The notes under the pieces were generated by a model. That model did no database searches, had not been told where the DNA came from, and worked only from the letters and a program-made list of their open reading frames with translations. DNA of 64,000 nucleotides from Pacificispira spongiicola. GTDB lineage: Bacteria > Pseudomonadota > Alphaproteobacteria > UBA8366 > Aestuariispiraceae. This document shows, piece after piece, positions 20,690-35,698 of this stretch. Made by a program: the position numbers and the translations under genes. Position 1 is the stretch's first letter. Each line of letters starts with the position of its first letter. Location: positions 1-64,000 of the forward strand of contig NZ_JABBNT010000004.1 in NCBI RefSeq assembly GCF_012926505.1, given 5' to 3'.

Positions 20690-21943
20690 TCAACGGCGGC
20701 GTTTCCGGGTCGCGCGATTGTCGATCCCCGCCCGGTTTCGGATGTTGGACACAACACGCCGGGACACGGTGATGCCGTGACGGGATAGCCGTTCGGCGAT
20801 TTGCGTGTCGCTGAACGGCTTTTCGGCGGATTCGCTTTCTACGATCCGGGCGATCATTTCCCCCACCGCCGGGGCGGCAAACCGGGGTTCGTCCGTGATC
20901 GGGTCCCGCCGCGCTGCGCGGCTGAAAAAGCGGGTCAGCGGGATTGTGCCATGCGGCGTCGCGGCGGACCCCGCATTGACCAGGCGTCCGACGGTGCTTT
21001 CATGCAGGCCTATTTCCAACGCGACCGCCCGCTTGGTGAGGGGGCGCAAGGACCCGACGCCGTCCGACAGGAAACCGGATTGTTCTCTCGCCAGGACGCG
21101 GCCCACATCCAGCATCGATTTGTTCCGCCGTTCGATCGCGGCGATCAGCATATTGGCTTCCCGCCGCTCCTGGGAAAGGCGCGACCCGCGCGGTACCGAT
21201 CCGCCGAGGGTCGCCAGCGATAGGCGGGGTGTCGTTTCCGGGTTCAGGGCGACCTGCCAGCCATCCGTCGTCTCGGTGAAGGTCAGGTCCGCGACACGGG
21301 ATGCGCTGGTCTGGCTGGAAAACCGGGCGGCGGGACGCGGGTCGAGTTCCCGCAGGCGGGCGACGAGGGACGCGACCCTGGACAATGGCAGCCTCGTTTC
21401 CGCCGCCAGGGCCTCCAATCCGCCCTGGGTCAGGAGGTCGAGACGGTCGAGCACGGATTGCATTTCCGCGTCCAACGCACCGACAGCGGCGAGTTGCAGG
21501 CCTAGGCAATCCGCCAGCGAGTGGGCGAAGACGCCGCGCGGTTCGATCCTGCGCAGCGCGTCCAGGACCGCATTGACGCGGTCCCGCGTCACGCCGGTTC
21601 GACGCGCGACGGCGTCGGTCGTGGCCGTCAGAATGCCGTTCGCATCCAACGCTTCCGCCAGGGCAATGGCGATGGCGTGATCGCGCGGCGCGGGGACCAG
21701 ATGCGGCAATTGACTGAGGATATGCGAAATGAGCGAGGGGCCGTCGTCTTCGGCATCGGCACTGTTGAATTCCGCCGGACGGGCGGCCTGAACCATAAGC
21801 CAGGGATTGTCCGATGCGATTTCGTGAAGCGTCTGCGTCAGTTCGACATTCGAAAGCTCAAGGAAACCGATCGACCGGGTGAGGCCCAAGGTGAGCCTCA
21901 ACGCGGTCTGCTGACGCATTGAGATTTCGTTGGATATCTTCAT
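20690..21943 (-). CDS. rpoN: Divergent RNA polymerase sigma-54 factor paralogue
   Basis: This 417-residue RpoN-family protein is shorter than usual housekeeping RpoN (about 480-500). Region I is recognisable (MRQQTALRLTLGL, then IGFLELSNVELTQ and NPWL) but the acidic region II is short. The core-binding domain and the helix-turn-helix region (AVALEIGLHESTVGRLV) are present. The C-terminal RpoN box reads SRRVVSNIRN where the family consensus is ARRTVAKYRE, so the -24 contact is altered. It ends a run of minus-strand catabolic genes that includes a sigma-54 activator, suggesting a dedicated sigma factor. A hairpin (21974-22000) separates it from the dehydrogenase gene. Confidence 0.87.
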   Translation of the reverse strand: MKISNEISMRQQTALRLTLGLTRSIGFLELSNVELTQTLHEIASDNPWLMVQAARPAEFNSADAEDDGPSLISHILSQLPHLVPAPRDHAIAIALAEALDANGILTATTDAVARRTGVTRDRVNAVLDALRRIEPRGVFAHSLADCLGLQLAAVGALDAEMQSVLDRLDLLTQGGLEALAAETRLPLSRVASLVARLRELDPRPAARFSSQTSASRVADLTFTETTDGWQVALNPETTPRLSLATLGGSVPRGSRLSQERREANMLIAAIERRNKSMLDVGRVLAREQSGFLSDGVGSLRPLTKRAVALEIGLHESTVGRLVNAGSAATPHGTIPLTRFFSRAARRDPITDEPRFAAPAVGEMIARIVESESAEKPFSDTQIAERLSRHGITVSRRVVSNIRNRAGIDNRATRKRRR

Positions 21944-21973: not shown

Positions 21974-22000
21974 TGCGGGCGGCCTTTCGAACCGCCCGCA
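21974..22000 (-). terminator. Hairpin between the aldehyde dehydrogenase and rpoN-like genes
   Basis: TGCGGGCGG (21974-21982) and CCGCCCGCA (21992-22000) form a 9-bp stem with a 9-nt loop. On the minus strand it is followed by ATTTCTTC, a weak U-run. It could end the catabolic transcript or only lower expression of the downstream rpoN-like gene. Confidence 0.6.
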
Positions 22001-22007
22001 GTATCAA

Positions 22008-23507
22008 TCATCCGTTCAAATCGATCCAGACCGATTTGGTCTGGGTATATTGGGTCAGGGCCTCCAGGCATTTGTCGCGGCCGTTGCCGGACTGCTTGAA
22101 CCCGCCCCAGGGCGTCGTCGCGTCGCCCGCCTCATAGGCGTTGACCCAGACGATCCCGGCTTCGATATCGCGGGCGAAACGATGGGCTTTCTTCAGGTCC
22201 GCCGTCCAGATCGACGCGGCCAGGCCGTAGATCGTATCGTTCGCGACCTCGATCGCGTTGTCGTAACCGTCGACCGGTATAATGGACGCAACCGGGCCGA
22301 AGATTTCTTCCTGGGCGATTTTCATCTTGTTGGACACGTCGGTGAACAGCGTCGGCTCGACATAGCATCCCGCATTGTATTCCGCCGGAACCACCCCGCC
22401 GAAGGCCAGTTTCGCGCCTTCGGATTTGCCCGCATCGATGTAGCCCAGGACACGGCTCTGCTGTTCCGTGGTCACCAGCGGGCCCATGGTCGTATCCGGG
22501 TTCAACGGATCGCCCAGGGCGACGGACTTCTTCGCGGCCGCGGTGAACAGGTCGACGTAATCGCCGTAGAGTTTGCGATCGACCAGGATACGCGACCCGG
22601 CGGAGCAGACCTCGCCCTGGTTGCCGTAAATCCCGGCGACGCCCGTCGCGGCGGCGGTTTCCAGGTCCTCGCAATCGGCCATGACGATCTGCGGGGACTT
22701 GCCGCCGCATTCCGTCGTCACGCGCTTCATGTTCGACTGCCCGGCATAGATCAGCATCAGCTTGCCGACCTCGCCGGAACCGGTGAAGCCGATCTTGTCG
22801 ACGTCCATATGCAGCGCCATCGGTTTGCCGGTTTCCTCGCCGAAGCCGGTGACGACGTTGAAGACACCGTCCGGGCCACCGGCCTCGCTGAACAGCTTTG
22901 CAAGCAGCAGGGCCGATAGCGGCGACTGTTCGGCGGGTTTCAGGATGATGGAATTGCCGCAGGACAGGGCCGGGGCGATTTTCCAGGCGGCCATCATCAG
23001 CGGATAGTTCCACGGCACGACCAGGCCGCAAACGCCGATCGGCTGACGCAGGATGTAATGCAGGGCGTCCGAATTGGTGGCGGTGACGACCCCTTCCATC
23101 TTGTCGATGCTTTCCGCAAAAAAGCGGATGGTCGACAGCGATCCCGGAATGTCGACATTGATCATGTCGGAAATCGGCTTGCCCATATCCAGCGTATCGA
23201 GAACCGCGAAGTCTTCGGCGTGTTCTTCGATCAGATCCGCGAAGCGGGACATAACGTCCATCCGCGCGCGCGGCTCCATGCGCGACCAGACGCCGGACTT
23301 GAAGGCCTTTCGGCCGGAGGCGACGGCCCGGTCGACGTCTTCCGCGTTGCCCTGGGCGACGGCGGCCACAACCTCGCCCGTTGCCGGGTTGATCGATTCG
23401 AATTTCCGGCCCGTCACGCTGTCGACGAATTTACCGTCGATATACATGCGGGTTTCCGGTTTGATCGCCGCGGCTTTCTTTTTCCAATCCTGCACTGTCA
23501 GTGTCAT
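22008..23507 (-). CDS. PuuC-like NAD(P)-dependent aldehyde dehydrogenase
   Basis: The 499-residue ALDH has the catalytic Cys in NQGEVCSAGSR, the general-base Glu in ECGGKSPQ, the cofactor loop GFTGSGEVGK and the C-terminal TPWGGFKQSGNGRDKCLE. The last motif and the overall look resemble PuuC, which oxidises gamma-glutamyl-aminobutyraldehyde in the putrescine pathway. The gene lies 13 bp after a polyamine-type permease. It is the expected last oxidative step for an aldehyde released from an amine by the upstream enzymes. Confidence 0.92.
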   Translation of the reverse strand: MTLTVQDWKKKAAAIKPETRMYIDGKFVDSVTGRKFESINPATGEVVAAVAQGNAEDVDRAVASGRKAFKSGVWSRMEPRARMDVMSRFADLIEEHAEDFAVLDTLDMGKPISDMINVDIPGSLSTIRFFAESIDKMEGVVTATNSDALHYILRQPIGVCGLVVPWNYPLMMAAWKIAPALSCGNSIILKPAEQSPLSALLLAKLFSEAGGPDGVFNVVTGFGEETGKPMALHMDVDKIGFTGSGEVGKLMLIYAGQSNMKRVTTECGGKSPQIVMADCEDLETAAATGVAGIYGNQGEVCSAGSRILVDRKLYGDYVDLFTAAAKKSVALGDPLNPDTTMGPLVTTEQQSRVLGYIDAGKSEGAKLAFGGVVPAEYNAGCYVEPTLFTDVSNKMKIAQEEIFGPVASIIPVDGYDNAIEVANDTIYGLAASIWTADLKKAHRFARDIEAGIVWVNAYEAGDATTPWGGFKQSGNGRDKCLEALTQYTQTKSVWIDLNG

Positions 23508-23520
23508 TTCACTCTCCCCG

Positions 23521-24330
23521 TTACTGGTTCTTTCGACCGCGCGTGACGATCACGGCGGCAACGATCAGCACTAAAGATGCGGCCACGATCAGGGTGGCGA
23601 CGGCGTTGATTTCCGGCGTAACGCCCCGGCGCATGGTCGAATAGATGTACATCGGCAGCGTATTGTCGCGGCCCGTCAGGAAGAACGTCACCGGGATTTC
23701 ATCGAAGGACAGGACGAAGGACAGAAGTCCCGCCCCGATGATCGCCGTCTTGATATTGGGCAGCGTCACGTCGATGAAGCTGCGCCACGGTCCGGCCCCC
23801 AGATCGAAGGCCGCTTCCTCAAGCGATTTCGGCAGGCGTTGCAGCCGGGCGTAAACCTGCGTGACGACAACGCCCAGCAAGGCGGTGGCATGCCCCAGGA
23901 TCACCGTTTCCAGGCTCAACTGGAAACCGACCAGCTTGAACATGTTCAGCATGGAAATACCGGTCACGATGCCGGGCAGGGTGATCGGCAACAGGATCAG
24001 CCGCCGGAAGATGGATTTCCCCGGAAAGGCGAAACGGTGCAGCGTCATGGCCGCCGGGACGCCGACGATCAGGGTCAGGGCCGTGGCGAAGCTTGCGACA
24101 TAGAAGCTGTTCCAGATCGCCGCCTGAAGGTCGGTGTTTTCCGCCAGCTTGCGGTACCAATCCAGGGTGAAGCCGGACAATGGCCAGGTCAGCGAGCGGG
24201 AATCGTTGAAGGAAAAGGCGACCAAAACCCAGATCGGCACGTAGAGGAACGCCATCAACATACCGACGAAGGTCATGAAGGCCGTGTCGGCGCCGTATCG
24301 GGAAACGAGGTTCATCGGTGCGTTCTTCAT
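23521..24330 (-). CDS. Polyamine-type ABC transporter permease (PotC-like)
   Basis: This 269-residue inner-membrane permease has about six spans and the EAA loop EEAAFDLGAGPWRSF that docks to the ATPase. It resembles PotC/PotI. I place the start at ATG 24330, which overlaps the stop of the preceding permease by one base (TGATG). A longer frame upstream of this lies inside the neighbouring gene and is not used. It belongs to the four-gene transporter within the catabolic cluster. Confidence 0.92.
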   Translation of the reverse strand: MKNAPMNLVSRYGADTAFMTFVGMLMAFLYVPIWVLVAFSFNDSRSLTWPLSGFTLDWYRKLAENTDLQAAIWNSFYVASFATALTLIVGVPAAMTLHRFAFPGKSIFRRLILLPITLPGIVTGISMLNMFKLVGFQLSLETVILGHATALLGVVVTQVYARLQRLPKSLEEAAFDLGAGPWRSFIDVTLPNIKTAIIGAGLLSFVLSFDEIPVTFFLTGRDNTLPMYIYSTMRRGVTPEINAVATLIVAASLVLIVAAVIVTRGRKNQ

Positions 24331-25226
24331 CACAAACCTCCCGTCAGGCCCTTGCGTTCCATCCGGTCCGACAGGGACACGATGGACAGCACGATGACCA
24401 GCATGACGATGGACAGGGCGGAACCGAGCGGCCAGTTCAGCGCCGCGCCGAACTGTGTCGCGATGACATTCGCGATCAGGTTCCCGTCCGGCCCACCGAC
24501 CAGGAAGGGGGCGATGAAGTCGCCGAAGGACAGGCAGAAGGTCAGGGTGAATCCGGCGGCGACGCCCGGCAGGGACAGGGGCAAGGTCACATGCCAGAAG
24601 CTGCGCCACGGTCCCATGCCCAGATCGGCGGAGGCCTCCACAAGGTTCGTCGGGATCTTTTCCAGCGCCGTGTAGATCGGCATGACCATGAAGGGGATGA
24701 AGATATAGGTCAGGGTCACGACCATGGAGAACTGGTTGTAGAGGAAGATCGACGAAGGTTCGTCGATGATACCGACATTGATCAGCAGGGAATTCAGCAC
24801 CCCTTCCGTGCCCAGGATTGTTTTCCAGATATAGGCGCGCAGCAGATAGCTGACCCAAAGCGGCGCGATGACCGCCATATAAAGCCACGCCCGCAGCGCC
24901 GCCGATTTGCACCGAAAGACGAGGTAATAGGCGAAGGGATAGGCCAGCAGAAAGGACGCGATGGATACCAGAATCGCGATCTTCAGCGTCCGCAGGATGA
25001 CCAATACATATTGGGGATCGGTGAACAGGGTTATGTAGTTCCCGAACTGGAAATCCGGGATGAAGGACGGATATTTCTTCAGCCAGAAGGACGTCACGAC
25101 GATGATGCCGTAGGGCAGCAGCATGAAGAACGCGATCCACAGGATCGGAATTCCGACGACGAAGGCCCCGGCGAGATTGTGTTTCGCGAGGCCGCGTCCT
25201 GCGAGGGTGCGGGAAAGGGCGCTCAC
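24330..25226 (-). CDS. Polyamine-type ABC transporter permease (PotB-like)
   Basis: The 298-residue permease has a cytoplasmic N-terminus, a first span (about 22-45), a large periplasmic loop and five further spans. The EAA loop is VEASADLGMGPWRSF. It resembles PotB/PotH and pairs with the PotC-like permease it overlaps by one base. Its own start overlaps the ATPase gene by 4 bp, so the transporter genes are translationally coupled. Confidence 0.92.
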   Translation of the reverse strand: MSALSRTLAGRGLAKHNLAGAFVVGIPILWIAFFMLLPYGIIVVTSFWLKKYPSFIPDFQFGNYITLFTDPQYVLVILRTLKIAILVSIASFLLAYPFAYYLVFRCKSAALRAWLYMAVIAPLWVSYLLRAYIWKTILGTEGVLNSLLINVGIIDEPSSIFLYNQFSMVVTLTYIFIPFMVMPIYTALEKIPTNLVEASADLGMGPWRSFWHVTLPLSLPGVAAGFTLTFCLSFGDFIAPFLVGGPDGNLIANVIATQFGAALNWPLGSALSIVMLVIVLSIVSLSDRMERKGLTGGL

Positions 25227-26320
25227 GGTTCGATCCTTCCTTCGAAAACGAAGACGTTTTGCGGATCGACGCCCAGGCGCACGGGCTGGCCGACTTCCGG
25301 CACCGAGGTCTGGGCCAGGCGGTCGGGCAGGATACGGTCGGTATAAACTTTCTCCCCGCCGGGCAGTTTTACGGAAAGGCGCAATCCCAACCCGTAATAG
25401 ATGACTTCGGCGACCGTGCCGGACAGAACGTTGCCGGCGGATTCGCCGTCGGCCAGTACGCGGATTTTTTCCGGTCGGATACCGGCGGTGACGGCAGCGC
25501 CTTTCGAAAAGGCGGTTTCCAGATCGGCATTCAGGGAAGCACCGTTCATGCCGATGACGGCCCGCGACCCATCGACACTGTCGATGGTGCCGTTCAGGAA
25601 ATTGGTCGTCCCGATAAAGTTCGCGACATAGGGCGATTTCGGATGATCGTAGAGGTCCTGCGGTTTGCCTTCCTGCGCGATCCGGCCCGCTTCCATGACG
25701 ACCACACGGTCGGACATGACCAGGGCTTCGGTCTGATCGTGGGTCACCATGATGAAGGTGATCCCGACCTTTTCATGCAGGTGTTTCAATTCGATCTGCA
25801 TCAACTCGCGCAGCTTCGCGTCCAGCGCGGAGAGCGGTTCGTCCAGCAGCAGGACCTTCGGGCGCCGGACGATGGCGCGGGCCAGCGCGATGCGCTGCCG
25901 CTGCCCGCCGGACAGTTGCTGGGGACGTTGATCGATCTTGTCCTGAAGTTCGACGAGCCGCAGCGCATCGATGACGCTCGTCTCGATCTCGCTCTTCCCC
26001 AGTTTCATCATTTTGAGGCCGTAGCCGACATTCTCGCCGATCGTCATATGCGGAAACAGCGCATAGTCTTGGAAGACCATATTGACCGCCCGGCGATAGG
26101 GCGGGTCCCAGGTGACATCCTTGTCCGCCAGCCGGATCGTGCCCGCGGTCGGTTTTTCGAATCCGCCGATCATGCGCAGCAGCGTGGACTTTCCACATCC
26201 CGACGGTCCCAAAAGGGTTACGAACTCCCCATCCTCGACAGACAGCGATACGTCGTCGACGCCAATGATCGTCGGACTGAAATGCTTGGAGAGATTCTCC
26301 AACTGGATAATTGCGGCCAT
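25223..26320 (-). CDS. Polyamine-type ABC transporter ATP-binding protein (PotA-like)
   Basis: The 365-residue ATPase has Walker [10 protein letters not shown], signature LSGGQRQR, Walker B VLLLDEPLSALD and switch His in VTHDQTEA. A C-terminal TOBE-type domain (from about 240) is typical of PotA/PotG. It powers uptake through the two downstream permeases. It lies 120 bp after the binding-protein gene; the gap holds a stable hairpin (26351-26385). Confidence 0.94.
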   Translation of the reverse strand: MAAIIQLENLSKHFSPTIIGVDDVSLSVEDGEFVTLLGPSGCGKSTLLRMIGGFEKPTAGTIRLADKDVTWDPPYRRAVNMVFQDYALFPHMTIGENVGYGLKMMKLGKSEIETSVIDALRLVELQDKIDQRPQQLSGGQRQRIALARAIVRRPKVLLLDEPLSALDAKLRELMQIELKHLHEKVGITFIMVTHDQTEALVMSDRVVVMEAGRIAQEGKPQDLYDHPKSPYVANFIGTTNFLNGTIDSVDGSRAVIGMNGASLNADLETAFSKGAAVTAGIRPEKIRVLADGESAGNVLSGTVAEVIYYGLGLRLSVKLPGGEKVYTDRILPDRLAQTSVPEVGQPVRLGVDPQNVFVFEGRIEP

Positions 26321-26440: not shown

Positions 26441-27484
26441 TTATTGAGCTTTCACCGCATTCCAGGCGTTGGTGTAGACCTCGAACCGGTCACCCAGCGG
26501 CGCCCACATCAGCAGGCTGTCCAGATAATCCGGATCGTCCTGATGCAGGGCCGCGAATTGTTCCGGCGTCATGCAGGATTTCGCCGCCGCCGCGTTGGAC
26601 GCGGAATAGCCGTTCACATTCGCCACGCCGCACTGACCCAGTTCGGACAATTGCATGTTCAGGAACTTGTAGGCGCAATCCTTGTTCGGCGTGCCTTTGA
26701 CCACCATCCAGCTGTCCATCCAGCCTTCGGCGCCTTCGGTCGGGATGAATTCCGTGACCTTGATGCCTTCATCGGCCAGCAGGCTGGACTGATACCCGGC
26801 CCAGGTGTTGGAAATGACGACTTCGCCCGCCTTATACAGGTCGACCAATTCGCCTGCCGTCGCCCAGTATTTACGGACCAGCGGCTTCTGTTCCGCCAGA
26901 GCTTCCTGCGCCTTGGCGATCTGTTCGTCGGTCAGTTCGTAGATATTCATATCGCCGTTCTTGCGCGCGGCGACATAGATCGCGCTTTTGTCGTCCCAAA
27001 GCGAGATTTTACCCTTCAGATCCTCACGCCACAGATCGGCGATGGAGGTCGGCGGAGTGGCGAACGCATCGTCCCGATACATGAAGGCGATCGCGCCCCA
27101 GGCATAGGGCATGCCGTAATATTCGCCGTCCTTTTGGATACCGTCCAAGGCGCGGAACTTCGGATAGATATCGTCCCAACCGGCGATCTTGCTGGTGTCC
27201 AACGGTTCCACGAAGTCCAGATCGATCATCAGTTTCGTCGTGTCGATCGACGGGATAATCAGGTCATAGACCCCGCCGCCGGCCGTCAGCTTCGGTGCGA
27301 AATCGTCGTTCGAACCGACATAGGTGGCGTTCACCTTGCAGCCGGATTCCTCTTCGAACTGGGTAATGAAGGACGGGTCGGTATAGCCTTCCCAGGTCAG
27401 GACGTTCAGGGTTTCTTCGGCCATCGCGGTGCTGGCGGACGCCGCCAGCAGGAAGGCGCTGCATGCTAAAAACTTGGATCTCAT
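26441..27484 (-). CDS. Polyamine-type ABC transporter substrate-binding protein
   Basis: The 347-residue periplasmic protein has a Sec signal (MRSKFLACSAFLLAASASTAMA, cleaved near residue 22) and the PotD/PotF-type fold: LNVLTWEGYTDPSFI at the mature N-terminus, YDLIIPSIDTTKLM and PYAWGAIAFMYR. The YDLIxPS segment and WEGY are family hallmarks. The ligand cannot be read from sequence; neighbouring genes point to an amine. It is the first of four transporter genes and lies 33 bp after the sigma-54 activator. Confidence 0.92.
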   Translation of the reverse strand: MRSKFLACSAFLLAASASTAMAEETLNVLTWEGYTDPSFITQFEEESGCKVNATYVGSNDDFAPKLTAGGGVYDLIIPSIDTTKLMIDLDFVEPLDTSKIAGWDDIYPKFRALDGIQKDGEYYGMPYAWGAIAFMYRDDAFATPPTSIADLWREDLKGKISLWDDKSAIYVAARKNGDMNIYELTDEQIAKAQEALAEQKPLVRKYWATAGELVDLYKAGEVVISNTWAGYQSSLLADEGIKVTEFIPTEGAEGWMDSWMVVKGTPNKDCAYKFLNMQLSELGQCGVANVNGYSASNAAAAKSCMTPEQFAALHQDDPDYLDSLLMWAPLGDRFEVYTNAWNAVKAQ

Positions 27485-27517: not shown

Positions 27518-28906
27518 TTACTGGTTTTTTCTGGTTTTACGGGAAATGGTGCCGATATCGACACCAAGCGCGGCAGCCGCTTTCCGCTTACTGCCGTGAA
27601 TACGGATCGCGTCTTCGATGATCCGTAATTCGTAGTCCGCGACTGCGTCGCGGAGGGATGTTCTTTCCGCCAGCGGGGGCGTTTCCGGTAGGGTTTCCTG
27701 AAGGGGTGCATTCGGCGCATTCAGGTCCAGTTCCATTAACCGCCTGGGCAGTTCGTCGATATCCTCGCCCAAGACGGAAATCTGAAGCATCAGATTCCAC
27801 AATTCCCGGATATTGCCGGGATATTGGTACAGGCGCAGGCGGTCGCGCAGGTCGTCGGACAGGTCCAACGGGACCGAGCGGCGCTGATTGATCGCCGTCA
27901 GGAATTTCTCGATCAGGTGTTCCAGAAGTTCCGGCACCTCGCGCAGCGGGCGCATCGGCATGTTCACGACGGCCAGCCGGTAATACAGGTCCAGCCGGAA
28001 TCGCCGTTCGTCGGCCAGCGCCAGTAGGTCGCGGTTGGTCGCGGAAATCACTCGAACATTGACCCGGCGCGACCGTGTGCCGCCGATGCGCATGATCACC
28101 CCGTCCTCCAGGAAGGACAGCAGCTTTGCCTGCAACGGCAAGGGGATTTCACCGATTTCGTCCAGGAACAGCGTGCCGCCTTCGGCGGATTCGATCAGTC
28201 CCTTCTTGCCTTCCACCGACGCGCCGGTGAAAGCGCCCTTCTCGTATCCGAACAGTTCGGATTCGAACAGGCTTTCCGGGATCGCCGCGCAATTGACGGC
28301 GACGAAGGGGTCGGTGCCGTTGGCGACGAAATTGTGCAGGTAGCGGGCCATTTCCGTCTTACCCACGCCGGACTCGCCGGTGATGATGATCCGCGCCCCT
28401 TGCAGCAAGGCGCGCTCGCCGCGTGCCATCATGCGGTCCAGCCAGGGGGAGATGCTGCGCTGGCGGGCGAAGTCCGGGCGCAGGCGGCGTTCGTTGACGG
28501 CGTGAAAGCCCGCTTCCGATCGTTGGCCGGATGCTTGACGCCGGGCATGGTCGAAGACGGCGAGATCGCGCAGGGTCAAAACATAACCGGCATCCGCTTC
28601 CGGCGGTCCCGCCCGGCGCAATGTCACGAAAATCGCACCGACGGTTTCCCCGCGGAGGATCAGGTTGCCGCTGCGCCCGGCCTCCAGCATCTCCAGGATC
28701 AGCGTCCAGTTCAGATCGGATTCCCGACAGACCGCGACGAAATCCTGGCCGACGATTCCTGTCGGATCGAAACCGGCAATGGTCCCCGCCTCGCGGTTGC
28801 AGAAGGCGACGATGCCCGCGTCGTTCAGGACAATCAGACCGTCGGGCAGCGCGTCCAGGGATGCGGTGACGTCGAACGGGGTCGATGGGGTTTGGTTCCG
28901 TGTCAT
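27518..28906 (-). CDS. Sigma-54-dependent activator with N-terminal PAS domain
   Basis: The 462-residue bacterial enhancer-binding protein has an N-terminal PAS-like sensor (about 12-115). Its AAA+ domain carries Walker A GESGVGKT (177-184), GAFTGA (224-229) for sigma-54 contact and Walker B GGTLFLDEIGE. A Fis-type helix-turn-helix closes the protein (SKRKAAAALGVDIGTISRK). There is no receiver domain, so the signal is probably a small molecule or a partner protein. I choose ATG 28906, which has GGAGAG upstream. It lies inside the P450/glutamine-synthetase/transporter cluster that also ends with a sigma-54 gene, so local control is likely. Confidence 0.92.
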   Translation of the reverse strand: MTRNQTPSTPFDVTASLDALPDGLIVLNDAGIVAFCNREAGTIAGFDPTGIVGQDFVAVCRESDLNWTLILEMLEAGRSGNLILRGETVGAIFVTLRRAGPPEADAGYVLTLRDLAVFDHARRQASGQRSEAGFHAVNERRLRPDFARQRSISPWLDRMMARGERALLQGARIIITGESGVGKTEMARYLHNFVANGTDPFVAVNCAAIPESLFESELFGYEKGAFTGASVEGKKGLIESAEGGTLFLDEIGEIPLPLQAKLLSFLEDGVIMRIGGTRSRRVNVRVISATNRDLLALADERRFRLDLYYRLAVVNMPMRPLREVPELLEHLIEKFLTAINQRRSVPLDLSDDLRDRLRLYQYPGNIRELWNLMLQISVLGEDIDELPRRLMELDLNAPNAPLQETLPETPPLAERTSLRDAVADYELRIIEDAIRIHGSKRKAAAALGVDIGTISRKTRKNQ

Positions 28907-28924
28907 CGGTTTCTCTCCCATCGC

Positions 28925-30118
28925 CTATCGCTCCGCCCGGAGTTTGACGAGAGAGTCCCGCGTCTCGCCGGCGCCCGCCGATCCCATCCGGGGCCGCAGA
29001 CTGAGGACGAGATAGTCGTTGCCGCGCAGCGTAAGCGGCCGCGCGGTCAATTCGGCACGCAGGTTCGAACCGGCCCCCGGAATGCCGACCGGGAATATCC
29101 GGTTCGGATGCCGAGGAATTGTCGACGCGGTCGAGGAAAACAGCGCCGACAGGCCGGATGGCAGATCAATCAGATCCTTCAAATTGCGTTCCGGCAGAAT
29201 ATCCGGGGTCACGTGCAGCAATTCTTCGGCGGCAAGATTGATGCGCAGGATGGCTCCGTCTCGGTCGACGACCAAAACGGCATCCGGCACGGCCTCGATA
29301 ATGCTGCGCAGCGTGTCGATTTCTTCGCGCAGCCCCGCCGCGCGGCGGGCATGTTTGGACACGTCGCGAACGGTTCCCCACATGCGGTAGAGGCGATTGC
29401 CCCGGATATGGCCGCGGACGTCGTTTTCGACCTCGATATACATGCCGTCATAACGCAGGTCGCGGGACGGGGCGCCGTTCACATCGAAATTCGCGCGGAT
29501 CAGGCTGCGCACGAAGGTTTCGTTTTCCGGGCTGCGCTGGAAGGTTTCGTGAACCGGGCGCAGGTTGAAGTCCTCGCCTTCCGGGGTGCGGTACAGGCGT
29601 GCCATCGCATCGTTGCAGAACCGCCAGCGCGGGCCGTTCTCGAAAACTTGCCGGACGATTTCTTGCTCCGGCGCGGACAGGTCCAGCGGTTCGCGCCATT
29701 CCATGCACCAGCCCGCATCGTCCGACGCGGCCAGGATCGACGACAGGATCTCGTTTTCTTCCGCCAGACGGGCGACATCGTCCAGGGAGCCGCCTTGCCG
29801 CCATTTCACCAGCCGCAGGCAGGCGCCGTGGTTGGCGTCGTCATACAGTGTCGCCACGGCGGTGGTGGAAATCGTCGGGCCGCCCGTGGCCCGGCGCAGG
29901 TCCAGACGCACGACATGCGGACCGGGCCGGGTCTGGGCGAACAGCCCTTCCAATCGTTCGCGGGACGGCAGCGGGTAGATGTCGGACCAGGGGGCGCCCG
30001 TCATCTCTCCCGCTGCAAGGCCCATCGCGGCCTCCTGGGTCGGGCAGACATGGAGAATCGACCCGTCGCGGCACAGAATGTCCGTCATTTCCGTCACGGT
30101 CGTCGCGTCTTTTCCCAT
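28925..30118 (-). CDS. PAS-domain protein of unknown role, partner of the activator
   Basis: The 397-residue protein appears to have three PAS-like parts: about 10-110, about 130-260 and about 270-370. The last begins REEIDTLRSIIEAVPDAVLVVDRDG. No kinase, GGDEF or DNA-binding domain follows, so it may sense a ligand and pass the signal by protein contact. It lies 18 bp upstream of the sigma-54 activator gene and 27 bp after a glutamine-synthetase-like gene, which suggests a sensory partner for that activator. Start at ATG 30118 with AAGGGA upstream. Confidence 0.78.
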   Translation of the reverse strand: MGKDATTVTEMTDILCRDGSILHVCPTQEAAMGLAAGEMTGAPWSDIYPLPSRERLEGLFAQTRPGPHVVRLDLRRATGGPTISTTAVATLYDDANHGACLRLVKWRQGGSLDDVARLAEENEILSSILAASDDAGWCMEWREPLDLSAPEQEIVRQVFENGPRWRFCNDAMARLYRTPEGEDFNLRPVHETFQRSPENETFVRSLIRANFDVNGAPSRDLRYDGMYIEVENDVRGHIRGNRLYRMWGTVRDVSKHARRAAGLREEIDTLRSIIEAVPDAVLVVDRDGAILRINLAAEELLHVTPDILPERNLKDLIDLPSGLSALFSSTASTIPRHPNRIFPVGIPGAGSNLRAELTARPLTLRGNDYLVLSLRPRMGSAGAGETRDSLVKLRAER

Positions 30119-30145
30119 GTCCAGTCCCTTCAAGTCAGCTTTGGG

Positions 30146-31624
30146 TTACGGCAGGCAGTGCAGATACCTTTCCACATCCCAATTGGTGACCTCTCTTAAG
30201 AACCGCGTCCACTCATCTTGTTTGTATTCGTCGTAAACTTCGTAAAGTCGGCCCGGCATGGCGGAGCGGACGACCTCATCCTGTTTCAACGCATCGAGCG
30301 CGTCGCGCAGGTTCAGCGGGATCAGTTTGACGTCGCCGCCGGACTGCCAGACCTCCGTCACGTTGCGGTCTTCCGGCTTGCCCGGATCGATCTTGTTGCG
30401 GATGCCGTCGTCCATCGCCTTCAACAGTGCGCCGCAGAACAGATGCGGGTTGACCATGCTGTCCACCGCCCGGAATTCCATGCGGTCGGGGGAGGAAATG
30501 CGGATGGTGCAGGACCGGTTCTGCAGGCCCCAATTGGCGCCGATCGGCGCCCATAGGCCGAAATCGTTGAATCGGCGGTAACTGTTGACCGTCGATGCGC
30601 CGATGGCGGTCAGGGCGTCGATATGCTTGATCGCGCCGCCCAGAACCCAATGGCCGAGTTCCGACGGCAACCAGCCGCCATCCGTGCCTTCGAATTCGTT
30701 CGTGCCGCCGACGGAATACATCCAGTTTTCTTCCATCCCCGGCAATTCGCCCGGTACGATCTGCTGAACCTCGCGTTCGCCCCCCAACCAGATGGAGCAG
30801 TTGTGGTGACAGCCGTTGGCCGCGTAGCCCATGTAAGGCTTGGACATGAAGCAGGCGATCAGCCCGTGCTGGCGCGCCACTTCCGCGCAAATCTGGCGGT
30901 AGGTCGTCATGCGGTCGCAGGTCGCTAGCATGTCGTCGAACTGATAGTTCAGTTCGATCTGACCCGGCGCGTCCTCGCAGTCGCCCTGGATCATGTCCAG
31001 GCCCATGGCGCGGGCGTAATCGGATACCTGCATCCAGATCGTCCGGGCGCTTTCGAACTGCCCGATGTGATAGGCCAGGGGTTCCGTGATTCCTTCGAAC
31101 GGGCGGACCTCGCCGTCTTTCGGCTTCAGCCACAGCATTTCCGGTTCCATGCCAACCCTGACATGCAGGCCGTTATGCGCTTCCCGGAAGTCGCGATCGA
31201 ACCGCTTCAGGTTGCCGCGCGTGTCGTATTCGTAATATTCACCCGGATGATTGGGATCTTCCAAGCCGTAGAACAGGGTGCAGAAAACGCGGGCGACGCG
31301 CTTGTCCCAGGGCAATTGGACGAAGGTGTCGGGATCGGGCAGCGCGATGCATTCCATGGCATTGGCGTCGAACCCGATCAAGTTGCCCTGAAAATCCGGC
31401 AACACGTTGGTGACGCCGCCCATCCAGGTCTGTACCCCTTTACGGGACTGCGTTTCCCAATGGCGGGACGGCGCGGCCTTGCCCATCACGCGACCGGTGA
31501 TGGAGATATATTGATAGTAGATATAGTCGACACCCAGCGCGTCGATCTTCGCGCGCACACGGGCGACTTGTTCGGCGCGGCCGGGGGTATCAAGTTCGCG
31601 GTGGTAATCGGTATTCGTGTTCAT
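30146..31624 (-). CDS. Glutamine-synthetase-like gamma-glutamyl ligase (paralogue 1)
   Basis: The 492-residue protein has the glutamine synthetase catalytic set: metal ligands in GMEPEML and EDAPGQIELNY, His in NGCHHNCSIWL, NSYRRF, substrate Arg in NRSCTIRI and MEFRAVDSMVNPHL. Non-housekeeping members of this fold join glutamate to amines (PuuA-type putrescine ligases, gamma-glutamylmethylamide synthetase). A polyamine-type transporter and PuuC-like dehydrogenase nearby favour an amine substrate. A second, diverged paralogue precedes it by 45 bp. True glutamine synthesis is less likely because no glnB or ntr genes adjoin. Confidence 0.88.
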   Translation of the reverse strand: MNTNTDYHRELDTPGRAEQVARVRAKIDALGVDYIYYQYISITGRVMGKAAPSRHWETQSRKGVQTWMGGVTNVLPDFQGNLIGFDANAMECIALPDPDTFVQLPWDKRVARVFCTLFYGLEDPNHPGEYYEYDTRGNLKRFDRDFREAHNGLHVRVGMEPEMLWLKPKDGEVRPFEGITEPLAYHIGQFESARTIWMQVSDYARAMGLDMIQGDCEDAPGQIELNYQFDDMLATCDRMTTYRQICAEVARQHGLIACFMSKPYMGYAANGCHHNCSIWLGGEREVQQIVPGELPGMEENWMYSVGGTNEFEGTDGGWLPSELGHWVLGGAIKHIDALTAIGASTVNSYRRFNDFGLWAPIGANWGLQNRSCTIRISSPDRMEFRAVDSMVNPHLFCGALLKAMDDGIRNKIDPGKPEDRNVTEVWQSGGDVKLIPLNLRDALDALKQDEVVRSAMPGRLYEVYDEYKQDEWTRFLREVTNWDVERYLHCLP

Positions 31625-31669: not shown

Positions 31670-32986
31670 TTATCCTTCGAGGTAACGGGCGCGTTCCTCG
31701 TCGCTGACCGCGCGGGCCAGGCTGGTATATTCGGACCGGCAGGCCGCGACGTAATTGTCCGTGAAGGCCGTCCCGAAAATGCGCTTCGCATGGTCGGATG
31801 CCGCCAGATTGTCCGCTGCCTCCACAAGATCGCGGGGGAAGCGCCGCGCGCCTTCCGGCACGAAATCGGGATGGGCGGCGGCCGTCGCGGGCGGTGTGGC
31901 AAGGCCGCGTTCGATCCCGTCCAGCCCGGCGCCCAGCATCAGGGCCATGGTCAGATAGGGGTTGCAGTCGGCGGGCGGCACGCGGAATTCCAGGCGGGCG
32001 CGGTCGTCCTTATGCGGCACGGACCGGACGGCGACCGTGAACGGATATTCCGCCCAGGTCAGAGATTTGGGGGCCCAACTGCCGGGGGCGAGACGGCGAT
32101 AGGCATTCACCGTCGATGTGCACATGGCAAACGCTTCCGGCACGATTTCCATCATGCCCGCAATGAACGTGCCCGCCAGATCGTTGGTCTTGCCGTCCGG
32201 ATCGGAAAACAGGTTCGCCCCCGTCTTCGCGTCGCGCAGGCTCATCACGCAATGGCCGCCGATAGCGGGGTAGTCGTTCCCCATATGCGGCATGAAGGTG
32301 ATCGTCTTGCCGTGCTTACGGGCGTAGCTGCGCGCAGCGAGGCGCAGGAAGGACGCGTCGTCCGCCGCCCGCAGGCCTTCCGTCGCGGCCAGCGTCGCTT
32401 CCAGGCAGCCGGGCCCCAATTCAACGCCCAAACCATAAAGGGATACGCCGTGACCGAGGATTTCCGCCTCCAGTCCTGCGATGAAGTCGGCATAGGTATT
32501 GGCCGTCGCCCCGGACCAGCATTTGTTGTCCGGTGCGTATTTGCCCAGCGCGCCGAAACCCTTTTCACGGATCGTGGTTTCCGTTTCGTCGAGGATCAGC
32601 AATTCGAACTCGAACCCGGCATCGACCGTGTAGCCCATGGCGGCGGCGCGTTCGATCTGCTTGCGCAGAACCTGTCGCGGCATCACCTCCTTCGCCTCGC
32701 CCGATAGTTCCGCGATGACGGTGACCGCTTTCGGCTCGGACGGGTTGGCACGCATGGAAGACGGGTCGATGTCGACCGTTTCGGTGAAATAGGACGTGCC
32801 GCCGAACAGCGTGTCGCCGCTGTCCCAATAGGCGATGACATTGGCAAATCGGGGGTCGCCCGCCCAATGCAGGAACTGTTCGCGGCGCAAGCGGCGTTCC
32901 CGGAAGACGGACGCGTAATCGAACTGGCCGACATGGATGATGTCTGCGTCGAATTTGTCCAAGGCGGCTTTCAAATCGTCGGTCAT
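31670..32986 (-). CDS. Glutamine-synthetase-like ligase (paralogue 2)
   Basis: The 438-residue protein shares the glutamine synthetase fold: GFEFELLIL, GPGCLEATL, GGHCVMSL, NAYRRL, and LEFRVPPADCNPYL near the end. The second metal segment reads GPGCLEATL where the family usually has a GQ-x-E pattern, so its chemistry or partner may differ from paralogue 1. Start at ATG 32986, with GAGG upstream and 7 bp after the reductase stop. Having two different ligase-type proteins in one operon suggests either a hetero-oligomer or two substrates. Confidence 0.87.
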   Translation of the reverse strand: MTDDLKAALDKFDADIIHVGQFDYASVFRERRLRREQFLHWAGDPRFANVIAYWDSGDTLFGGTSYFTETVDIDPSSMRANPSEPKAVTVIAELSGEAKEVMPRQVLRKQIERAAAMGYTVDAGFEFELLILDETETTIREKGFGALGKYAPDNKCWSGATANTYADFIAGLEAEILGHGVSLYGLGVELGPGCLEATLAATEGLRAADDASFLRLAARSYARKHGKTITFMPHMGNDYPAIGGHCVMSLRDAKTGANLFSDPDGKTNDLAGTFIAGMMEIVPEAFAMCTSTVNAYRRLAPGSWAPKSLTWAEYPFTVAVRSVPHKDDRARLEFRVPPADCNPYLTMALMLGAGLDGIERGLATPPATAAAHPDFVPEGARRFPRDLVEAADNLAASDHAKRIFGTAFTDNYVAACRSEYTSLARAVSDEERARYLEG

Positions 32987-32993
32987 GGTTTCC

Positions 32994-34211
32994 TCAAACG
33001 GCTGCGAAAGGGGTCGATGCATCGGCGATGCGGGACCGGTGTTTTGCGAGACTGGCGGGGTTGGCACCCAGGCCGACGATACCGACGATGCGGTCGTCGC
33101 GGGCATATTCGACAATGACCGGCTCGGTGCCGACCCGGCTCAAATCGCCTTCGATGACTGTTTGCGTTTCCGCCAAGGTCGGCGCGCCGAAGGCCTGCAG
33201 CCGCATGCCGTATTGGTCGCTCCAGAAGCTCGGCATCGGCGCGAAGGCGGCGTCCGGCTCCTTGCCGTCGGTCAGGGCGGCGATGCTTTCGGCGGCACGT
33301 TTCGCGGTGACGCCGGGGATGCTCCAATGTTCGACACGACGGGGAACGGTGTCGAATATCGGATTGGGGAAGCGGGCGACATCGCCGACGGCCAACAGGT
33401 TTTCCGTCCCCGCCGCGACCATGCGTCCGTCGACCAGAACCCCATCTTCCAGATCGGCGCCTGTACCGGACAGCCATTCCGTGTTGGGGCGTGACCCCAT
33501 GGCCTCGACCACCAGATCGGTTTCGATGCGTTGCCCGTCATCCAGGATGGCGCTGCCGTCCGTGAAACTTTCGACGAAACGCCCCAGGATCAGATGAACC
33601 CCGTTTGCGCGATGCAATTGCGCCATCGCGGCGGCGACCCGCGCGCCCAGGGCCTTCAACATCGGTTGCGGCGTCGGGTCGACCAGCGTCACCGACAGAC
33701 CAAGCTTGCGGGCGGTCGCGGCGATTTCACAGCCGATGAATCCCGCGCCGACGATCAGCAGACGTTTGCCCGGTTGCAGTTCCGCGGCGAGCCCTTGGGC
33801 ATCGTCGAAACTGCGCAGCACATGGCGGACGCTTTCCATTCCCGGTATCGGTAGGCGGCGCGGCCGCAGCCCCGTCGCGGCAATGATCCATTCGCCCCGC
33901 ACCAAGGATCCGTCCGACAGCCGGACACCGTCACTTTCCACGCCGGTGACCGCCCGGCCGAGGCGCAGGTTGACGTCTTCCGGGTTCAGGCGGCTGCGCA
34001 GTAGCAGTTTTTCGAACACCGCGTCCGGCGGCGCGCTGCCGTCTGCGAGGGCCTGGATGGCTTCCTTCGACAGGGGCGGGCGGTTGTAAGGCGGATGGGA
34101 TTCCGCGCCGACAAGCGTGACGCGGGCATCGGGGCGCAATGCGACAATCGCTTCCGCCGTGCGCAGACCGGCGAGGGATGCCCCCACGATGATGATGGAA
34201 GGTCCGCTCAT
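32994..34211 (-). CDS. FAD-dependent ferredoxin reductase of the P450 system
   Basis: The 405-residue flavoprotein has two dinucleotide-binding motifs: an FAD site IIIVGASLAGLRTAEAI (6-22) and an NAD(P)H site LLIVGAGFIGCEIAATA (about 150). It also has the FAD-closing LLAVGDVARFPNP. It resembles putidaredoxin-reductase-type enzymes. It should pass electrons from NAD(P)H to the 61-residue ferredoxin encoded 10 bp upstream and on to the P450 encoded before that. Confidence 0.92.
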   Translation of the reverse strand: MSGPSIIIVGASLAGLRTAEAIVALRPDARVTLVGAESHPPYNRPPLSKEAIQALADGSAPPDAVFEKLLLRSRLNPEDVNLRLGRAVTGVESDGVRLSDGSLVRGEWIIAATGLRPRRLPIPGMESVRHVLRSFDDAQGLAAELQPGKRLLIVGAGFIGCEIAATARKLGLSVTLVDPTPQPMLKALGARVAAAMAQLHRANGVHLILGRFVESFTDGSAILDDGQRIETDLVVEAMGSRPNTEWLSGTGADLEDGVLVDGRMVAAGTENLLAVGDVARFPNPIFDTVPRRVEHWSIPGVTAKRAAESIAALTDGKEPDAAFAPMPSFWSDQYGMRLQAFGAPTLAETQTVIEGDLSRVGTEPVIVEYARDDRIVGIVGLGANPASLAKHRSRIADASTPFAAV

Positions 34212-34221
34212 CCCCGCCCCG

Positions 34222-34407
34222 TCAGCTTATGATGATCGCTTGTTCGGGACAGGCGTCGGCGGCGGCTTCCGCATCGGCGCGCAGCCCTTCGTCGGGATCG
34301 GTTACCCAGACAAGGCTGCCGTCATCCGCGAAGGAAAAAACCTCGGGCGCGGCGATGACACATTGGCCGTGCAGCAAACAGATCGTCAGATCGACATCGA
34401 TTTTCAT
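34222..34407 (-). CDS. [3Fe-4S]-type ferredoxin for the P450
   Basis: The 61-residue ferredoxin has Cys10, Cys16 and Cys53 in the pattern CLLHGQC...ACPEQAI. His replaces the fourth ligand position, as in P450-linked [3Fe-4S] ferredoxins with CxxHxxC. It starts at ATG 34407 with GAGGA upstream, 29 bp after the P450 stop, and ends 10 bp before the reductase. It should carry single electrons from the reductase to the P450. Confidence 0.92.
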   Translation of the reverse strand: MKIDVDLTICLLHGQCVIAAPEVFSFADDGSLVWVTDPDEGLRADAEAAADACPEQAIIIS

Positions 34408-34436: not shown

Positions 34437-35639
34437 TTATGCCGGATCGAAGGCGATCGGCATCTTGATCGCCCCGGTATTGCCGCTGTCGGGAAGCCAG
34501 CTGACGTCCCCGTTGAAGCGCGGATTTTTCAGGCGCTGGGCCAAGAGCTTCAGGGCTTCCGTCATGTCGCCGCGGGCGATGAAATGGCCCAGGCAGTGAT
34601 GCGCCCCGCCGCCGAAGCCGAAATGCGGGTTCCGTTCCGCCGTGATGTCGAATTCCGGATTGGGGAAGACCGTCGGGTCGGAACACGCAGCCTGGGAAAA
34701 CAGGTGCAGGGTCGTTCCCTTGGGGATTTCCAGGTCGTTATAGGTGAAGGTTTCCGTCGCCTCGCGCGTGACCCAGGTGATGGTCGGGCGGACGCGCATA
34801 ACCTCTTCGACCGCCGCGCGGGCCAGTTCCGGCTTTTCGGCCAGTAAGGCCCATTGATCCGGATGGCGGATGAACATGTCCATCGCCAATCCCAACTGGT
34901 TCCGGGTCGTGTCGATACCGCCGAAAATTGCCAGGACGATCATGTCGAGGAGTTCCTGATCGTTCAGCTTGGACTTGTCCTCGTTCGCCTTGACCAGGGT
35001 GCCGATGAAATCGTCCGACGGCTCCGCCCGGCGCAGGGCCACCAGTTCTTCGGCATAGTCGAAAATCTTCTGTGTCGCGGCGTCGACGGTGGCGAGGTCC
35101 TGCTTGTAGGTGACGCCAAGGGCGAGGCCCATATCCCCGGCGATATCGGCCAGTTCCCGCCATTTTTCGAACGGCAGGCCCAACAGGTCGCAGATCACGC
35201 CGGTCGCATAGGGCTCGGTGAATTCCGCGATGAAGTCGCATTCCCCCTTTGCCGCGAAACCGTCGATCAGGCGGTTCGCCAAGATTTCGAATTTGGGCCG
35301 CAAATCCTTAATCAGTTTGGGGGAGAAGGCCGGATTCGCCATGCGGCGCAGGCGCGCATGGTTTTCGCCTTCCTGACTCAACAACATGTTTTCCCACCAC
35401 CGGGCGAACAGGCCCGTCACGCCGACATGGGTCGGCCAGCGGTAAGACCCCTGCCGCAGGGTAGGGTGACGCAGCAGCTTCAAGACGTCGTCGTAACGCA
35501 GGACGGCCAGACCGTAGGGGGTCTTTGCACACCAGGATTCGTCCCGCGCATTCAGCACCGCCTGGGAACGGATCGAGAAGTTCGGATCGGCGACGTCCAG
35601 AAACGGCAACGTCTCGAAACTGTCTGCAACCTGCATCAT
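34437..35639 (-). CDS. Cytochrome P450 (class I, ferredoxin-dependent)
   Basis: The 400-residue soluble P450 has the I-helix oxygen-activation motif AIFGGIDTT, the K-helix EEVMR (ExxR) and the haem loop FGFGGGAHHCLGH with Cys349 as ligand. It has no membrane anchor, as expected for a bacterial class I enzyme served by the ferredoxin and reductase genes that follow. Start at ATG 35639 with GGGAG upstream. It heads the thirteen-gene minus-strand run. A sigma-54-like promoter (35683-35698) precedes it. Likely role: hydroxylation or N-dealkylation of the imported compound or its gamma-glutamyl derivative (inference). Confidence 0.95.
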   Translation of the reverse strand: MMQVADSFETLPFLDVADPNFSIRSQAVLNARDESWCAKTPYGLAVLRYDDVLKLLRHPTLRQGSYRWPTHVGVTGLFARWWENMLLSQEGENHARLRRMANPAFSPKLIKDLRPKFEILANRLIDGFAAKGECDFIAEFTEPYATGVICDLLGLPFEKWRELADIAGDMGLALGVTYKQDLATVDAATQKIFDYAEELVALRRAEPSDDFIGTLVKANEDKSKLNDQELLDMIVLAIFGGIDTTRNQLGLAMDMFIRHPDQWALLAEKPELARAAVEEVMRVRPTITWVTREATETFTYNDLEIPKGTTLHLFSQAACSDPTVFPNPEFDITAERNPHFGFGGGAHHCLGHFIARGDMTEALKLLAQRLKNPRFNGDVSWLPDSGNTGAIKMPIAFDPA

Positions 35640-35682: not shown

Positions 35683-35698
35683 TGCAAGTTGACTTCCT
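35683..35698 (-). promoter_or_regulatory. Candidate sigma-54 (-24/-12) promoter of the P450 operon
   Basis: On the minus strand AGGAAGTCAACTTGCA has GG and GC separated by exactly 10 nt, with TTGCA at the -12 element (consensus TGGCACG-N4-TTGCA). Predicted transcription would start about 33 bp before the P450 ATG. The -12 part lies in a perfect palindrome, TTGCATGCAA (35678-35687), so a repressor site is an alternative reading. Confidence 0.5.

Follow-up and report, generated by a model that had tools for sequence, protein, structure and literature searches.

A cluster-linked sigma-54 factor of Pacificispira spongiicola with a probably altered -24 promoter code

Results

Gene cluster

The window analysed was a 64,000-nucleotide stretch of the Pacificispira spongiicola genome. 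A set of genes assigned by Pfam and NCBIfam was found on its minus strand, running from position 35639 downward. It began with a cytochrome P450 (34437-35639, ATG at 35639, PF00067), a 61-amino-acid ferredoxin (34222-34407, PF13370), a ferredoxin reductase (32994-34211, profile match) and two glutamine-synthetase-like (GS-like) proteins (both PF00120), the first at 31670-33115 with an uncertain start and the second at 30146-31624. A PAS protein (28925-30133, profile match) and a sigma-54 activator (bEBP) with a GAFTGA motif (27518-28921, PF00158) followed. In related modules the PAS protein also adjoined the activator homologue, and it was considered a putative sensor for the activator. Further, the same strand encoded an ABC solute-binding protein (26441-27484) and a PotA-type ATPase (25223-26320), both recognized by profile matches, two permeases (24330-25226 and, with an approximate start, 23521-24339; both PF00528), and an aldehyde dehydrogenase (22008-23507) whose best NCBIfam match, PuuC, was under its cut-off. 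The sigma-54 gene (20690-21943) lay at the end. Our guess is that the cluster chemistry consists of P450 oxidation and gamma-glutamylation of an amine.

The gap between the aldehyde dehydrogenase and rpoN contained an 11-pair hairpin with a T-rich tail (21974-22000, minus strand), a possible terminator or attenuator in a region where hairpin-type sites numbered 15 against a shuffle mean of 15.1. Three relatives carried a class-I glutamine amidotransferase-type ORF at this position (one confirmed by Pfam), where P. spongiicola had just the short gap with the hairpin.

A variant -24/-12 promoter of the P450 gene, AGGAAGTCAACTTGCA (35683-35698, minus strand), was assigned by alignment with orthologue promoters. 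It had the form GG-N10-GC and was the site named in an earlier note on this DNA. A second GGAA-like site, TGGAAAGGTATCTGCA (30174-30159), was considered as a promoter of the PAS gene and rejected. It was located inside the coding end of the second GS-like gene and was dropped because the conservation there may be that of the encoded protein.

Linked sigma-54 protein

The linked gene encoded 417 amino acids. Pfam matches over the cut-off were obtained for the AID (residues 7-49, 1.2e-6), the CBD (66-243, 2.6e-35) and the DBD (256-415, 5.6e-36). The 16 residues between AID and CBD corresponded to a short region II, and in the alignment to chain 7qv9_M residue 74 fell opposite E. coli sigma-54 residue 123. 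The RpoN box, SRRVVSNIRN (residues 394-403; 20735-20764, minus strand), deviated from the consensus ARRTVAKYRE and retained the three arginines; the HESTxxR of the -12 helix was also retained. Using the box numbering 454-463 given in PMC2680985, box position 4 was T457 in E. coli and V397 in the linked protein (codon from 20755). As stated in PMC7175178, the loss of R455 or R456 abolishes -24 binding; the equivalents of both were present. The protein scored 243 bits with the NCBIfam rpoN equivalog TIGR02395, under its cut-off of 277.35. Hence, the linked protein is a genuine but divergent sigma-54 and not a standard rpoN.

The linked gene was not the only rpoN of the genome, being its second PF04552 match. 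The search for a housekeeping copy, which the earlier note had suggested, located a 516-aa frame with the box ARRTVAKYRE on contig C13 (G000:C13:95034-95510), so that both types coexist in P. spongiicola. The housekeeping box read ARRT[VI]AKYR in 58/58 proteins. Thus, the description in the earlier note of a 417-residue sigma-54 with a reduced region II and an altered box, on the same strand as a gene set with a GAFTGA activator, was confirmed by the ORF, the Pfam matches and the 7qv9_M alignment.

Relatives of the cluster

A search of relatives with the sigma-54 protein matched 53 of 59. Each of the five same-genus genomes had one match, of 32-33% identity among the matches listed, and the extra copy is therefore absent there. 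Beyond P. spongiicola itself, the top hit among 385 genomes drawn from across the class was a 553-aa frame of 39% identity. No relative was found by a single-protein search of genome contigs, nor by tblastn of the last 66 amino acids against plasmids.

When RpoN boxes with N at position 7 were sought by pattern, 24 loci were obtained: 13 sigma-54s, eight DBD-only proteins and three others (L088, L098 and L100) matching no sigma-54; 16 of the 24 were carried into the count of host sigma-54s. These loci led to Thioclava sp. JE_KL1, Rhodobacteraceae UBA6796 and Sinirhodobacter hankyongi, where the cluster recurred and its sigma-54 gene occupied the same position. The activator search was positive in 8 of 390 genomes of the order of G423 at E <= 1e-85, S. 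hankyongi included, and added G526, G462, G736 and G500 as cluster carriers. The cluster with its linked sigma-54 recurred in seven genomes besides P. spongiicola, which agreed with the earlier view of a second, cluster-linked factor.

Some related arrangements were also observed. In G206, the P450 and reductase genes, the two GS-like genes and those for the transporter, PAS protein and activator were present, with no sigma-54 within the 19.5 kb read and one elsewhere in the genome. In Ruegeria sp. SCSIO 43209 (L045:9325-9925), P450, two GS-like and ABC genes were accompanied by an Lrp regulator, with no linked sigma-54; the aligned promoter region resembled a GGAA site with broken -24/-12 spacing. 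The Gordonia sp. KTR9 plasmid pGKT2 (L046:12001-14476), from another phylum, encoded a P450 of 57% identity next to a GS-like stretch, and this pair had no sigma-54. Other short sigma-54s adjoined mim monooxygenase, acetone carboxylase, acetoin or SelD/OplA-type genes, and a Paracoccus kondratievae plasmid (L085) carried a very divergent one, with an acetoin dehydrogenase cluster and an activator as neighbours. The DBD-only proteins (L090, L091, L092, L094, L105, L107, L108 and L110; Pfam matches inspected for three) were of ~410 aa, one locus being cut. They came from Rhodoferax, Thiobacillus and other Proteobacteria, and shared the box SRRTVAN; the tail CNRMSP, or one like it, was conserved.

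Promoters and residue 457

The base following GG in the -24 element was compared with box position 4. All seven P450 promoters paired with V457 read GGAA in the orthologue alignment: AGGAAGTCAACTTGCA in the window, TGGAACCAAACTTGCA in L159, TGGAACGTAACTTGCA in both L160 and L207, TGGAACGGAACTTGCA in L161, TGGAATGCTTCTTGCA in L208 and TGGAACGATACTTGCA in L209. GGCA was read in both T457 cases, namely L034 (TGGCACGGGAGTTGCA, linked sigma-54) and L079 (TGGCACGTCGCTTGCT, host sigma-54 with the box ARRTVAKYRE). The single R457 promoter, TGGCCCCAAACCTGCA of L210 (G500), read GGCC; its linked box was TRRRIAKYRA, a possible third letter of the code.

A similar pairing was observed at the mimA promoters, which read GGAA with V457 (10/10) and M457 (1/1) and GGCA with T457 (7/7); the -12 element of L345 was weak, and L342 had an additional GGCA site upstream. 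Nine of the 18 mim clusters, which came from the PF04552 survey of the 390 genomes, surfaced after residue 457 had become the candidate, and all of them agreed with the pairing. The combination of methionine with GGAA was unforeseen when the residue was chosen. For P450 and mimA promoters combined, V/M457 was paired with GGAA in 18/18 (M once), T457 with GGCA in 9/9 and R457 with GGCC in 1/1. Five rows were dropped before counting: L333 repeated the cluster of L035, L103 shared a genome with L151, no sigma-54 frame was extracted for L284, and the L095 and L104 proteins were incomplete. G541 (broken frame) was outside the set. L033, L034, L035, L037 and L038 were plasmids, taken without their host chromosomes.

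In the acetone-carboxylase clusters, whose sigma-54s have T457 or A457, one promoter read GGCA in 5/5, and the other read GGCA in 2/4 and GGAA in 2/4, the acxA promoter of L143 being beyond the sequence end. Two of these promoters, in L033 and L142, read GGAA with T457 and were the exceptions to the pairing. It was also noted that all nine acetone-carboxylase promoters had no C at -21, and that in L033, L142, L143, L144 and L145 the own sigma-54 was placed between the GTP-binding protein and CoA-transferase genes.

Two other box positions were tried as the -24 switch and rejected. The first candidate was K to N at position 7; it failed because GGAA was also read in L160, L161 and L038, where K is retained. 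Serine at position 1 occurred together with T457 and GGCA in L085, L348, L352 and L353, among them three of the seven T457 mimA rows and P. kondratievae, whose SRRTVAK box went with TGGCACC before the acetoin genes. Hence, one part of the claim that the altered box shifts the -24 sequence was narrowed: position 4 (T to V) tracked the base after GG, and positions 1 and 7 did not. The shifted -24 sequence itself was strongly supported by the comparison of orthologous promoters.

Variation was also seen at -11. The mimA promoters of L089, L096, L102, L106, L148, L151 and L342 had C there (TTGCC). At mimA, this base was C where position 7 of the linked box was N or S and A in the K-type relatives; the P. 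spongiicola P450 promoter had A.

Pooled and with phylogeny ignored, A at -23 was recorded in 18/18 V/M promoters versus 2/20 of the others (Fisher 5.7e-9). A scan of 109 loci without orthology guidance gave C 39, T 16, A 6 and G 5 for T457 sites (n=66) and A 2 and G 1 for V457 sites (n=3), and was too noisy to be used alone.

A sigma-54 tree of 50 rows was built with the box columns excluded. The linked sigma-54s formed one group of 38 rows (100/99), separate from the housekeeping proteins and including an Octadecabacter flagellar copy. Within the P450 group (8 rows, 100/99), the Arg protein was outside the seven Val ones (99/94). Within the mim group (14 rows; 93/90, not starred), three Ser/Thr proteins stood beside eleven V/M ones (100/100). 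A single clade of all 18 V/M rows was rejected (AU p 0.0027); an earlier 37-row tree had not rejected one of 11 rows (p 0.43), and a clade of the P450 proteins with the Paracoccus TOH one was not rejected either (p 0.28). As the single V/M clade was rejected, the switch from T457 to V/M probably arose twice in these sequences. Both independent switches had the expected direction; with just two, a sign test, for which six or more independent pairs would be required, cannot reach significance.

Sites in the P. spongiicola genome

The pattern GGAA[CG]-N5-TTGCA occurred 32 times in the genome versus 11 for the reversed-pattern control. Thirty of the 32 sites were inspected: 28 were in predicted ORFs (one of them, L180, also 39 bases before another ORF), L174 had no gene close downstream, and the P450 site alone was outside predicted ORFs before a gene, so a wider GGAA regulon was not found among these sites. 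Canonical sites numbered 7 versus 3 in the control, with five of the seven outside predicted ORFs. Both promoter types seem to exist in this genome.

Discussion

We proposed that P. spongiicola carries a private sigma-54 which travels with the P450/GS-like/ABC catabolic cluster and whose T457V replacement brings a preference for GGAA; given the promoter comparisons, this explanation is considered likely. The linked factor has very probably changed its -24 code, its main target is probably the catabolic cluster, and the covariation suggests that one residue of the DNA-reading helix was changed together with its DNA signal. In the proposed mechanism, the PAS protein and the GAFTGA activator would open promoter complexes of the linked holoenzyme at AGGAAGTCAACTTGCA. 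The change from Thr to Val at position 4 would move the preference from GGCA to GGAA, perhaps through packing of the valine onto the methyl group of the thymine paired with A at -23, and the housekeeping holoenzyme would read the P450 promoter poorly. Such a change may come easily to a sigma-54 that serves very few promoters, since protein and promoter can then be altered together. With somewhat less assurance, we favour the broader reading that position 4 is a natural -24 switch (Thr for GGCA, Val or Met for GGAA, Arg for GGCC) that was flipped at least twice and gave orthogonal pairs.

The sigma-54 content of the hosts bears on why the cluster has its own factor. The earlier note had proposed insulation from the housekeeping RpoN as the cause. 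As a cause, this was not supported: seven hosts of a V457 linked copy (G423, G424, G425, G429, G430, G433 and G736) showed no other sigma-54, and therefore had nothing to be insulated from. In P. spongiicola, insulation would be a consequence rather than the cause. A rival to insulation, mostly compatible with the private sigma-54 explanation, is that a cluster entering a host that lacks sigma-54 has to supply one and that the code change was later drift; we put its chances at about even. In the order of G423 (one genome per species, with possibly incomplete assemblies), the PF04552 profile at E <= 0.001 hit 117 and missed 273 of the 390, and 17 of the hits were weak (4e-10 or worse). Six of the 12 genomes with a K-to-N-box sigma-54, and G736, had no other one, and the activator had lost GAFTGA in 3/3 sigma-54-less genomes with a related module. 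A module entering such a host may thus bring its own sigma-54 or stop needing one. Against this rival, a housekeeping copy was present in P. spongiicola, G426, G427 and G434, and GAFTGA was also lost from the plasmid activators of Shinella and Rhizobium sullae. The plasmid copies of Ruegeria PR1b and Hoeflea had no GAFTGA either, all four being read from plasmid sequences. Activator homologues without the GAFTGA loop were observed at L211, L212, L213, L047, L048, L049 and L050, three of them in genomes with no sigma-54 match.

It is unlikely that residue 457 is merely a lineage marker, with another DBD difference or the activator setting the -23 base. The V457 proteins did have many further changes, including S at position 1 in all 18 V/M rows, and the acetone-carboxylase exceptions combined GGAA with T457. 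However, the pairing occurred in two groups that could not be held as one clade, neither position 1 nor position 7 could be the sole cause in view of the S/T457 and K-retaining rows, and the Arg protein went with a third promoter form. A decaying duplicate, with the cluster driven by the housekeeping sigma-54 from a variant promoter that is weak, is very improbable. Among the cluster proteins compared with Thioclava JE_KL1, UBA6796 and S. hankyongi, the sigma-54 was conserved least (45-52% identity versus 60-89%), and a terminator-like hairpin precedes rpoN, but the gene was intact in eight cluster genomes, the window copy having every domain, was the sole sigma-54 in G433 and G736, and the P450 promoter covaried with it.

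Specialised sigma-54 paralogues are already known, and the -24 element is generally regarded as almost invariant. Several paralogues in one cell, as here, are found in Cereibacter (Rhodobacter) sphaeroides, where RpoN1, RpoN2 and RpoN3 each have their own activator and gene set (PMC11999139). The base reported to discriminate there lies at -11, with nif, flagellar and xrpA genes as targets, whereas in P. spongiicola the base is at -23, the target would be a catabolic operon and the sigma gene is inside the cluster. The RpoN2 of R. etli p42d is likewise a second sigma-54 beside its target genes, on a mobile replicon; however, it has a canonical box and groups with rhizobial housekeeping proteins, whereas the P. 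spongiicola copy belongs to the cluster-linked group. The linked factor shares the AID, CBD, DBD, box arginines and -12 helix motif with the housekeeping RpoN, and differs from its ARRT[VI]AKYR box, longer region II and canonical GGCA. No prior description of a pairing between box residue 4 and the -24 base was found in the open-licence literature searched.

If true, this residue-to-base pairing, apparently reached twice, would be a recognition rule for sigma-54, drawn from comparison alone. It would show a route by which a sigma factor with very few promoters changes its code, and would offer ready-made orthogonal sigma-54/promoter pairs able to coexist in one cell, as in P. spongiicola. It is also suggested that catabolic modules carry their own sigma-54 into lineages that are mostly without one.
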